Origin: Kaistella soli | GTDB taxonomy: Bacteria > Bacteroidota > Bacteroidia > Flavobacteriales > Weeksellaceae | Assembly (NCBI RefSeq): GCF_019038595.1 | Contig: NZ_JAHOPF010000004.1 | Location: 377,747 to 441,746 of the forward strand | DNA length: 64,000 nucleotides | Reading direction: 5' to 3' | In this document: positions 54,439-61,268 of the stretch, in pieces | How the letters are laid out: every line of letters begins with the position of its first letter | Numbering within the stretch: position 1 is the stretch's first letter | Made by a program: the position numbers and the translations under genes | Notes under the pieces: generated by a model | What the model was told of the DNA's origin: nothing | Databases searched by the model: none | Seen by the model: the letters and a program-made list of their open reading frames with translations, nothing else

Positions 54439-56463
54439 TTAAAAACGGTAGGTAAACGCGCAGTTAAAACTTCTTCCACGCTCTAAAATCCTCTGATGAC
54501 TCATGCCTGAAAGCGTGCGGCTCAAATGTTCGGCATAAGCTCTGTTAAAAATATTTGACACTTCAAAACTTAAGAAAGCATTATTAAACACATTATACTT
54601 CGCATTAAAATCAAGCAGCGAAAAGTCTTTCGTTACAAATTCCCCAAACTCAGGATTGATTCTTTTCTGAGTCGCAGCAAAACGGTACTGAAATCCAAAA
54701 ACGACCGGAGAAAAATCAGCTTCCATTCTCCACCTGAAATCCAGCGGAGCGATTTCCGGAAGCGGGTTTTTGGTATTCAGATCTTCACCGTAAGTGTAAG
54801 CTACGGCCATTTCTGTTCGGTATTTTGGTAAAAATTTCCAGTTAAAATTTGCTTCAACGCCTGCTCTGAAAGCTTTTTCAATATTCTGAAACTGTCTTGT
54901 CCCGGGAACCATCATCGAGTTGGGCTTAATATCCGAACGCACAACGCCGGAAATATAATCCTGCATCAGGGAGTAAAACCCATCAATCTGGAAATAAATT
55001 TTTTCTTTCTTATGCGTAAAAATAAGGTCAGCCTGATTATTGGTTTCCGGCTTCAATAAAGGATTTCCGACATACTGATAATCATCGGCACCAACGGGAA
55101 AACGGTTGATATATCTTTCCGTTAAACTTGCGCTGCGCTGCGCTCTTCCCATCCAGATGGCAAGCTGAGTGTTTTTGGTAATTCCATAACTGTAGCCTAA
55201 ACTCAAGCTGTGATTGAAATCTTCAGCTTTCATGTTTCCGTAAAGACTGGTAAACAGTTTGGAAGGATCTTCCGCATTGGCTTCGTTATAATCCAGCCTC
55301 AGCGAAGCCGTAAGTTTTGAGTTGCTGAAGAAATGCTGATATTCACCGAACCATCCCAACTGATCGATATGTGAATTCTGCCATGAGGTTCCGTCCGTCA
55401 TCATCGGCATTGCCATCGTCATTTTTGAACTTATGTTAACCGCCTCTTCATGTTTGTAATCGAAACCGGAGTAGAAAACATTTTTATTTTTAGCAAATTT
55501 TGCTTCTGCCCTTGAACCGTAAGTTCTGGTCCTGACGTCTGAAACCATCGACTGATCGGCTGTTCCCATTGAATGTTCAACGATCGAAAAATAGGAATTG
55601 AAATTAATATTCTTCAAAAGAGAATTCTGAAATTCCGCCAAATGGCCTAATTGAACCATCCACGTTTTATCAAAAAGCAGATCCATTTTCAGGGCAGCAA
55701 ATTCCACGTCCCGGCCTTGGTTTGAATTGATCTGAACATTCGTGGTGTTATTTTCGTTCCATTTAAAATTAGCTTTTGTCCCCACATTATACCTCAAGAA
55801 TGCAGAACGCACTTCATTACCGTTTCCGTCTTTGTAGCGGTCGCCTTTCTGATAAGAACCGAAAACATCCCAGACTATTTTTTTCGATGAAAGCTGCGCA
55901 AAACCCTCATTTCTCAAAATATTTCCATTGCTTTCGTAACCCAGAGAAATCCTTCCGTTTACATTGGTTTTATCAGAAAAAACAGGAGGAATTGTTATAA
56001 AATTAATCGTACCGCCCAAGGCATTGCCGTGACGGAAGTGATAAGGACCTTTGAAAATCTCAACTTCCTTTACCATATTCATATTGACCTGGCTTACTGC
56101 AGGATCCATTCTGCTCGGGCAGGCATTTACCGCATTGGAGGCACCATCGATAACGATGTTCAGCTGTTCATATTTAAATCCGCGCAAAACCGGATCTGTT
56201 GCATAATTTCCGGCCTTTTTAATCCCTGAAATTTCAGGAACCTGCTGAAGGAATTTCCCCGCATCGTGGCTGAGTAAATCGGAATTCTGAGTTTCAATTT
56301 TTTCTTTGTTTTTTGGTAAAAGTTTCGTGATTTTCACCACTTCTATATTCTGATAGAGAGAATCTGTGCTTTCCTGAGAGAAAAGGAGATTTGAAATCAG
56401 CAGACAAAGTGCCGCAAAAGCATACTTACCCTGCTGAAAAATAATTGTATTTAAATTTTTCAT
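54439..56463 (-). CDS. OprC/NosA-like copper TonB-dependent receptor
   Basis: 674 residues. Signal peptide cleaved after LLFSQ (about residue 30). Plug domain about 40-160 with SHDAGKFLQQVPEI, then a 22-strand barrel ending FNCAFTYRF. ACPSRMDPAVS at 114-124 matches the copper-receptor family block, and the CxxxM (Cys115, Met119) plus HxM (His297, Met299) pattern is the Cu-binding site known in Pseudomonas OprC, with nearly the same separation. It imports copper across the outer membrane. The Cys-rich partner is encoded directly upstream on the same strand. Confidence 0.88.
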   Translation of the reverse strand: MKNLNTIIFQQGKYAFAALCLLISNLLFSQESTDSLYQNIEVVKITKLLPKNKEKIETQNSDLLSHDAGKFLQQVPEISGIKKAGNYATDPVLRGFKYEQLNIVIDGASNAVNACPSRMDPAVSQVNMNMVKEVEIFKGPYHFRHGNALGGTINFITIPPVFSDKTNVNGRISLGYESNGNILRNEGFAQLSSKKIVWDVFGSYQKGDRYKDGNGNEVRSAFLRYNVGTKANFKWNENNTTNVQINSNQGRDVEFAALKMDLLFDKTWMVQLGHLAEFQNSLLKNINFNSYFSIVEHSMGTADQSMVSDVRTRTYGSRAEAKFAKNKNVFYSGFDYKHEEAVNISSKMTMAMPMMTDGTSWQNSHIDQLGWFGEYQHFFSNSKLTASLRLDYNEANAEDPSKLFTSLYGNMKAEDFNHSLSLGYSYGITKNTQLAIWMGRAQRSASLTERYINRFPVGADDYQYVGNPLLKPETNNQADLIFTHKKEKIYFQIDGFYSLMQDYISGVVRSDIKPNSMMVPGTRQFQNIEKAFRAGVEANFNWKFLPKYRTEMAVAYTYGEDLNTKNPLPEIAPLDFRWRMEADFSPVVFGFQYRFAATQKRINPEFGEFVTKDFSLLDFNAKYNVFNNAFLSFEVSNIFNRAYAEHLSRTLSGMSHQRILERGRSFNCAFTYRF

Positions 56464-59852: not shown

Positions 59853-59912
59853 ATAGTGCAGAATTAAATAAAAAAAATTATTTTTGAAAAAAATTTCAGA
59901 AATCACATAAAT

Positions 59913-59990
59913 ATGAATGCTTTTACATCAATAAAGAAAGTTACTTCTAAGGGGAAAAAGATGTCCTCTAAGGGAAATATGGTGTGTTAA
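59913..59990 (+). CDS. Lys-rich leader peptide upstream of lysA
   Basis: 25 codons, ATG at 59913 and TAA at 59988-59990. Lys at positions 8, 9, 13, 15, 16 and 20 (six of 25); residues 7-16 read IKKVTSKGKK and the C terminus is MVC. The nucleotide unit TCTAAGGG occurs twice (SKG repeated). It lies between its own promoter and an intrinsic terminator, so it is likely translated for regulation of lysA. A stand-alone basic peptide is the alternative. Confidence 0.6.
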   Translation: MNAFTSIKKVTSKGKKMSSKGNMVC

Positions 59991-60017
59991 GAGCTGAATA
60001 TTGATAACCAAATAATC

Positions 60018-60048
60018 AAGCAGGCTCTTTCGGGGCTTGCTTTTTTTT
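60018..60048 (+). terminator. Intrinsic terminator (attenuator) before lysA
   Basis: Stem AAGCAGGCTC with GGGCTTGCTT-type 3' arm (two or three G-U pairs), short loop around 60028-60032, then eight T residues. It leaves no room for a separate lysA promoter. Confidence 0.88.
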
Positions 60049-60068
60049 ATTTTAAATTAAATGATAAA

Positions 60069-61268
60069 ATGACCAACAAAGATCTGTTAAAAATTGCTGA
60101 ACAATATGGCACGCCTACCTACGTGTACGACGCCGAATCCATTAAAATTCAATACGAAAAACTTACTTCGTCTTTTCATAAGAGCACGAGGTTTTTCTAT
60201 GCCTGCAAAGCGCTCTCAAATATTAATATTCTAAAATACGTTAAAAGTCTGGGTGGTAATCTGGACTGCGTTTCGATAAATGAAGTAAAACTTGGACTGA
60301 AAGCCGGTTTCGAACCAGCAAAAATACTCTTCACCCCAAACTGTGTTGATTTGGCTGAAATCGAAGAAGCCATGTCTTGCAAAGTCCATATCAATATTGA
60401 TAACATGTCGATTTTGGAACAGTTCGGAAACAAATACGGTGATTCCTATCCCATTTTTGTGAGAATTAATCCACACATTTTTGCCGGAGGAAACTATAAA
60501 ATTTCGACCGGACACATCGATTCAAAATTCGGGATTTCCATTCATCAGCTCCGTCATATTGAGCGCGTGATGAAAACCACCAACATCAATGTAGAAGGAC
60601 TTCACATGCATACCGGAAGCGAAATCAAGGATCCAAATGTTTTTCTTGAAGGCCTGGAAATCATGTTCAGTCTTGCCGAACATTTTCCTAACCTGAAATA
60701 TCTGGATATGGGAAGCGGCTTTAAAGTTCCTTATCAGGAAGGTGACATGGAAACGGACGTTAAAGCGCTCGGCAAAAAAGTAGAAAAAGCACTTAGTGAT
60801 TTTTCGCAGGAATCAGGTAAAAAATTTGAACTTTGGTTCGAACCCGGAAAATATCTGGTAAGCAAAAGCGGTCATCTTATTGTAAAAACAAATGTCATCA
60901 AACAGACGACAGCAACGGTTTTTGCAGGAATCAACTCAGGGTTCAACCATCTGATCCGCCCAATGTTTTACGATTCGTATCATATCATCGAAAATCTTTC
61001 CAATCCTAAAGGCGCTGAAAGAATTTACACCGTTGTCGGAAACATCTGTGAAACTGACACTTTCGCCTGGGACAGAAAGTTAAACGAAGTTCGCGAGGGC
61101 GACATTCTCGTTTTTAGAAACGCCGGGGCTTATGGTTTCGAAATGAGTTCAAACTTTAACTCCCGACTGAAACCTGCGGAGGTACTGTTCCTTGACGGAA
61201 AAGCACATTTGATCAGAAAACGCGACGAATTTGAAGACTTGCTGAAAAACCAGATTGAGGTGTTGTAA
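60069..61268 (+). CDS. lysA: Diaminopimelate decarboxylase
   Basis: 399 residues, PLP-dependent fold III decarboxylase making L-lysine from meso-diaminopimelate, the last step of the pathway. PLP Lys47 in RFFYACKALSNI; EGLHMHTGSEI; LDMGSGFKVPY; the substrate blocks EPGKYLV, GNICETDTFAWD and NAGAYGFEMSSNFN. Length is standard. It begins 20 bases after an intrinsic terminator, so expression probably depends on read-through controlled by the leader. Confidence 0.95.
   Translation: MTNKDLLKIAEQYGTPTYVYDAESIKIQYEKLTSSFHKSTRFFYACKALSNINILKYVKSLGGNLDCVSINEVKLGLKAGFEPAKILFTPNCVDLAEIEEAMSCKVHINIDNMSILEQFGNKYGDSYPIFVRINPHIFAGGNYKISTGHIDSKFGISIHQLRHIERVMKTTNINVEGLHMHTGSEIKDPNVFLEGLEIMFSLAEHFPNLKYLDMGSGFKVPYQEGDMETDVKALGKKVEKALSDFSQESGKKFELWFEPGKYLVSKSGHLIVKTNVIKQTTATVFAGINSGFNHLIRPMFYDSYHIIENLSNPKGAERIYTVVGNICETDTFAWDRKLNEVREGDILVFRNAGAYGFEMSSNFNSRLKPAEVLFLDGKAHLIRKRDEFEDLLKNQIEVL

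Follow-up and report, generated by a model that had tools for sequence, protein, structure and literature searches.

A candidate lysine-codon leader-peptide attenuator upstream of lysA in Kaistella soli and related Weeksellaceae

The window analysed here, a stretch of 64,000 nucleotides from Kaistella soli, carries on its plus strand the gene lysA (60069-61268), encoding a diaminopimelate decarboxylase of 399 amino acids, the enzyme of the final step in lysine synthesis; this is the gene proposed to be under control. The assignment is based on matches to TIGR01048 (375.1 bits; cut-off 297.9), PF02784 and PF00278, and the protein is 95% identical to that of Kaistella haifensis and of several records named ‘Chryseobacterium’. 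Upstream of lysA, and on the same strand, the sequence reads a promoter element TATTTTTG (59879-59886) of the form TAnnTTTG, which we take to be the Bacteroidetes -7 consensus, followed by a leader peptide ORF from the ORF list (59913-59990) of 25 codons and a TAA stop, MNAFTSIKKVTSKGKKMSSKGNMVC, in which six of the 25 residues are Lys (K8, K9, K13, K15, K16 and K20). A terminator scan places an intrinsic terminator of 11 pairs with a loop of 3 at 60018-60042 and its eight-T tract at 60041-60048, leaving a gap of 20 bases to lysA; the terminator is therefore situated between leader ORF and gene, as it should be in an attenuator. An initial annotation of this DNA had reported the -7 element, the six-Lys ORF and the eight-T terminator, together with a last Lys codon at 59970, a terminator end near 60048 and the 20-base gap, and both the features and the arithmetic were confirmed.

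The transcript of this region is predicted to adopt alternative pairings. The minimum-energy fold contains a hairpin within the ORF (59945-59974, plus strand), with an outer UUCU/AGGG and an inner AGGGGA/UCCUCU helix, and RNAalifold also predicts a hairpin at this position in both of the large leader groups described below. The last Lys codon, K20 (59970-59972), is the proposed deciding stall site and lies 19 nt before strand 2, the putative 5′ strand of an antiterminator (59989-59996; DNA AAGAGCTG, RNA AAGAGCUG), which overlaps the TAA stop. An inner antiterminator helix, UUGAU/AUCAA, was found in the fold of the Kaistella soli locus itself (60001-60019), while strand 3, CAGGCUCUU (60021-60029), is shared, as its partner may be either strand 2, in the antiterminator, or the 3′ arm of the terminator; all of these elements are on the plus strand. 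When folded alone, the leader RNA barely improves on its shuffled versions (z -1.30; 24 of 200 shuffles equal or better), and the claim made below is consequently carried by comparative evidence and not by that fold.

For this comparison, a lysA-like match was obtained in 52 of 60 near genomes, of which 47 loci were read and five matches of 32-33% identity were left out, while a further 80 lysA loci were taken from a collection of titled records. Merging of identical regions and removal of one region shorter than 150 nt (L083) left 109 distinct upstream regions, and in 70 of these a leader of 23-31 codons, 25% of them Lys, is located ahead of a terminator. Three types of leader were distinguished, i.e., Kaistella-type leaders (23 of the 70; 25 codons, typically M....SIKKVASKGKKFFSKANSVD), Chryseobacterium/Epilithonimonas-type leaders (45 of the 70; 23 codons, typically MQNFKQNKTGKKGAVKFSKVWNI) and Cloacibacterium-type leaders (two of the 70; 31 codons). 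In the Cloacibacterium type (L077, L081 and L192), the stop codon is positioned 3 nt beyond the end of strand 2 rather than on it.

When terminator and Lys-rich ORF were scored separately in the 109 regions, both were present in 64, the terminator only in none, the ORF only in nine and neither in 36. Seven of the nine ORF-only regions are members whose terminator was missed by the script, though its hairpin was found by folding, while the other two (L041 and L064) are attributed to chance; among the 64, L044 is from a distant genus, looks like the end of an upstream gene and is probably unrelated. The terminator hairpin was recovered in all 70 members by folding and in 63 by the stricter script. 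A test of joint gain and loss on the lysA tree yielded four supported independent pairs among these related sequences, which are too few to reach significance. The initial annotation had held that absence of the ORF from relatives would speak against an attenuator, and such an absence applies to 13 of the 36 genomes of the window’s genus when the 230 bases before lysA are searched, with the leader kept in the other 23. The leaderless loci of this genus are L002, L009, L011-L015, L017, L020-L022, L026 and L029, one of which encodes a LysA protein 95% identical to that of the window, and the distribution of the leader within the genus is patchy, by loss or gain.

It is proposed, with a probability that we place at about 0.86, that this element is a ribosome-mediated transcription attenuator which senses charged tRNA-Lys ahead of lysA. 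Transcription would start some 20 nt ahead of the leader ORF and this ORF would be translated; the in-ORF hairpin, a candidate pause hairpin, may hold back RNA polymerase until the ribosome has caught up. When Lys-tRNA is plentiful, the ribosome would reach the stop codon and cover strand 2 (59989-59996), the terminator at 60018-60042 would form and RNA polymerase would stop near 60048. When Lys-tRNA is short, the ribosome would stall at a Lys codon no later than 59970, with its front edge short of strand 2; strand 2 would then pair with strand 3 (60021-60029), the terminator would be blocked and lysA would be read, so that termination in the cell would respond to lysine. The attenuator reading, already put forward in the initial annotation, is supported by sequence comparison among relatives, which bears out the leader ORF with its Lys codons, the terminator, the alternative pairing and the spacing, and ties the element to lysA.

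Lys accounts for 415 of the 1672 in-frame leader residues (24.8%), compared to 12.7% and 16.4% in the other two frames, and its two codons are used about equally (AAA 213, AAG 202). This 13-16% of Lys in other frames, like the weak fold of the single sequence (z -1.30), would suit another explanation, according to which the terminator is an ordinary one in a 5′ untranslated region without any switch and the abundance of Lys in the ORF reflects A-rich DNA. Against this explanation speaks the selection on Lys codons in Kaistella, where 21 distinct ORFs give a pN/pS of 0.12 at the seven Lys-majority codons versus 0.75 elsewhere, every Lys-majority column being included (an earlier choice of columns, biased towards conserved ones, was not used for this contrast). 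Reading these bases in the other two frames gives 1.02 and 1.05. By these ratios it is the Lys residues that selection holds in Kaistella, with Lys codons changing mostly silently. In the 35 distinct ORFs of the Chryseobacterium/Epilithonimonas group, Lys codons are not better conserved than the remainder (0.48 versus 0.31), and at two Lys positions Lys is replaced by Gln in eight and by Arg in 20 of the 45 leaders. An ORF rich in codons for the product of the pathway and under selection is present, as expected for an attenuator, and it is in Kaistella only that Lys codons stand out clearly from the rest. The last Lys codon specifies Lys in 22 of 23 Kaistella-type leaders, L018 having Glu at this position, and in all 45 Chryseobacterium/Epilithonimonas-type leaders, and third codon positions are the most variable of the ORF. 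The retention of Lys codons and stop position in relatives, which the initial annotation had suggested as a check, was thus borne out.

Conservation of the Chryseobacterium/Epilithonimonas ORF extends beyond Lys, with the stretch G-K-K-G-x-x-[KR]-F-[ST]-K-V-W-N being nearly fixed. This is what one would expect if the leader peptide itself stalled the ribosome on lysine or a related amine, in the manner of TnaC and SpeFL, which are leader peptides acting by nascent-peptide arrest, with the same RNA switch operating downstream. Yet the C-terminal residues vary by group (mostly VD; WN[IVT]; ELQ) and the non-Lys codons of Kaistella drift (pN/pS 0.75). Moreover, RNAalifold predicts two helices within the Chryseobacterium/Epilithonimonas ORF, AAAYY/GGUUU and GGGAGCU/[AG]GUU[CU]UC, and part of the conservation of this ORF, including the fixed stretch, may be because of them. 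Arrest by the nascent peptide is accordingly judged to be very unlikely in comparison with stalling on Lys codons.

The alternative pairing was assessed in a joint alignment of 33 of the 70 sequences, comprising 16 of the Kaistella and 17 of the Chryseobacterium/Epilithonimonas type, the Cloacibacterium type being left out. Over these 33 sequences, 93.2% of the antiterminator cells are paired, compared to 31-65% when the pairing is slid by 1-3 columns, and the covariation score of the joint alignment was reached by none of 500 shuffles. The informative antiterminator pair is CG in 14 sequences, UA in 13, UG in three and unpaired in three (n=33), although the terminator may be responsible for part of its covariation, because it uses this strand too. 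More telling for the antiterminator than this CG/UA pair is the C of column 99, which faces an A, unpaired, in the terminator of 17 of the 33 sequences and is paired with G in the antiterminator of 32. Two antiterminator pairs are changed on both sides, a number that 78 of 500 shuffled versions of the joint alignment also reach, while within groups compensatory change of the antiterminator is nearly absent (one cell in one group alignment, none in the other). In the terminator, 89.4% of cells are paired over the 33 sequences, and five pairs have changed on both sides. The check on terminator and antiterminator pairs which had been called for at the outset therefore finds them across genera, with some compensatory change. 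An exchange of strands between groups costs only 0.5-0.8 kcal/mol and lends little support either way. Four sequences (L110, L117, L124 and L127) seemed to break the antiterminator, each through an unpaired cell; the folds of L110 and L127 contain a version of it with 12-13 outer pairs and a displaced bulge.

Folding is likewise consistent with an antiterminator that shares a strand with the terminator. When the part before the arm was shuffled by single bases, no more than ten of 200 shuffles folded as well as the native antiterminator region in 17 of 23 Kaistella-type and in 43 of 45 Chryseobacterium/Epilithonimonas-type leaders. Mean predicted energies of terminator and antiterminator are -14.5 and -8.6 kcal/mol, respectively, in the Kaistella type and -11.6 and -12.1 kcal/mol in the Chryseobacterium/Epilithonimonas type. 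As the Kaistella terminator is the stronger of the two structures, the proposed switch would have to act during transcription and not at equilibrium. The value of -0.4 obtained for the Cloacibacterium-type antiterminator is not meaningful, since the strand sits inside the ORF before the stop codon.

Counted between the first bases of the last conserved Lys codon and of strand 2, the spacing falls within 16-20 nt in 65 of 68 leaders, even though the peptides differ. Kaistella-type leaders have 19-20 nt (21 of 23) and Chryseobacterium/Epilithonimonas-type leaders 16-18 nt (44 of 45); the script did not locate strand 2 in the remaining three, and the two Cloacibacterium-type leaders are excluded from this count. 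The front edge of a ribosome is approximately 12-15 nt from its A-site codon. Judged by spacing, strand 2 would be accessible with the ribosome at the last Lys codon and covered with the ribosome at the stop codon. Furthermore, all 70 members have a TAnnTTTG whose end lies 16-29 nt ahead of the leader start codon, against a background of 0.055 occurrences per 70 nt, and a search for this motif between leader and lysA found it in none of the 70, so that the separate lysA start site that the initial annotation had named as a counter-argument does not find support here. This near-constant spacing and the promoter motif, together with the pairing kept across genera, also argue against the ordinary terminator without a switch, which we regard as extremely unlikely.

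To describe the distribution of the element, a covariance model (R1) was made from the 3′ part of the leader and used to search 320 genomes of the family, some of which had supplied sequences to the model. Matches at E<=0.01 were present in 208 of the 320, of which 16 were weak (2.3e-4 or worse), and a count from the match list gives 192 of 320 at E<=1e-6; R1 could thus serve as an annotation rule for some 190 genomes. Among 42 strong R1 loci that were read, i.e., the top 30 and a further 12 from selected genomes, lysA is the next gene in 41, while the remaining locus stops at the contig end. Matches in genera outside the model (L164-L169) correspond to Lys-rich peptides directly before lysA, for example MSAVVTFKKVSAKGKKQFSKGISVA and MPTLSSKQIKISKKGIKPFSKDFVLS. 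The own genome has a single R1 match, that of lysA, and by R1 there are no elements before other genes in this genome. In an order-wide sample, 42 of 395 genomes match R1 at E<=1e-4, all 42 within the window’s own family. Fifteen weak loci (E 2.3e-4 to 0.0068), some of them the sole match of their genome, had no lysA by tblastn and are taken as chance matches or ordinary terminators, and L175 is a weak partial match at a contig end with lysA present. lysA is present in 27 of 34 family genomes that lack a strong R1 match, and only one of these 27 has a leader (L192, missed by R1).

Riboswitches, T-boxes and repressors are the usual explanations for lysine control in bacteria. The L-box lysine riboswitch resembles the lysA element in that lysine-dependent control is also exerted through a terminator in the leader RNA, and differs from it in having an aptamer, in place of which the lysA element has a conserved ORF. 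The Rfam covariance models of L-box and T-box have no match in the lysA leader. The predicted helices, one of which is inside the ORF, would nonetheless be compatible with a ligand-binding RNA, such as an unrecognised lysine riboswitch, that controls the terminator while the ORF is incidental. Against this, no Rfam family reaches its gathering threshold, and of the three weak matches at E<=1 the best is L20_leader (E 0.029; 21.9 bits against a cut-off of 58.7). In addition, a pure aptamer does not predict the variable third codon positions or the silent change of Lys codons in Kaistella, and a ligand-binding RNA is considered highly improbable.

The classical trp and his attenuators are ribosome-mediated systems of enterobacteria. 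The lysA element shares with them a short ORF that is rich in codons for the end product and precedes the first structural gene, and a strand near the ORF stop capable of pairing with the 5′ arm of an intrinsic terminator; unlike them, it would sense lysine and sits before lysA. The initial annotation had invoked the classical trp/his model for this locus, and the part of that model which concerns spacing fits. The 1:2 hairpin of the trp layout, which competes for strand 2, has no counterpart: the predicted in-ORF hairpin ends before strand 2 and shares no strand with the antiterminator, so that the layout is not strictly that of trp 1:2/2:3/3:4. A 1:2 hairpin is not present in every attenuator, and on the predicted fold its absence is to be regarded as a departure from the trp layout and not as an exclusion from the attenuators. 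In a three-strand layout, a ribosome at the stop codon would itself mask the antiterminator, and an untranslated leader might then read through.

Clues to leader-peptide attenuation at amino-acid operons have been described for Flavobacterium psychrophilum, where conserved 5′ elements include those of pheA and hisG; section 19 of that report contains no lysA case, and the word ‘lysine’ is absent from its main text (PMC9723704). In Sinorhizobium, the possible leader SEP5 contains six Thr and three Lys codons, and it is similar to the lysA leader in having Lys codons in a leader of the aspartate/lysine pathway, while being dominated by Thr, preceding an aspartate dehydrogenase gene and belonging to another phylum (PMC10117765). 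Leader-like sORFs are mentioned in Bacteroides in an excerpt of PMC7366714, the corresponding excerpt of PMC4132733 is unrelated to Lys leaders, and the terms lysA, lysine, Bacteroidetes and Flavobacteri do not occur in the main text of PMC2965389. Searches of the open-access PMC literature, supplements aside, found no earlier report of a Lys leader for lysA. The mechanism is an old one; what appears to be new is its use for lysine, at lysA and in this clade. In much of one Weeksellaceae clade, control appears to depend on ribosomes stalling at Lys codons, which would add lysine to the amino acids for which leader-peptide attenuation is known, and the element is a candidate for a simple lysine-responsive switch in Bacteroidota. 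A more far-reaching claim, which we consider doubtful and advance only tentatively, is that this is the first lysine-specific leader-peptide attenuator, spread over much of that clade, with a three-strand layout in which an untranslated leader reads through, opposite to trp.

Two further leaders were noted in the same genome. A His-rich leader, MFNQLHHHHFHTCTLAS, precedes hisG (L213:2237-2290, minus strand) and is followed, as seen by eye, by a ten-pair stem, AATCCCGCCT/AGGCGGGATT, enclosing a loop of 10, and by a T run; the terminator scan, whose loop limit is 8, lists no terminator after it. This element is likely to be a his attenuator. A Trp-rich leader, MKTINNTNWWWPQNFQSLEHCSFV, precedes a trpE-like PF00425 gene (L215:730-857, plus strand), with a terminator assigned by the scan at L215:825-857, the 5′ arm of which also matches the ORF end by eye (CAAAGUCUU/AAGACUUUG), and is likely to be part of a trp attenuator. 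With His and Trp leaders in one genome, ribosome-mediated attenuation looks normal here, and lysA would be its third case. The homoserine dehydrogenase frame of this genome has another reading frame directly upstream. Elsewhere in the window, a TonB-dependent receptor is encoded on the minus strand (54439-56463), its best match being the copper-receptor model TIGR01778 at 242.3 bits, below the cut-off of 472.45.
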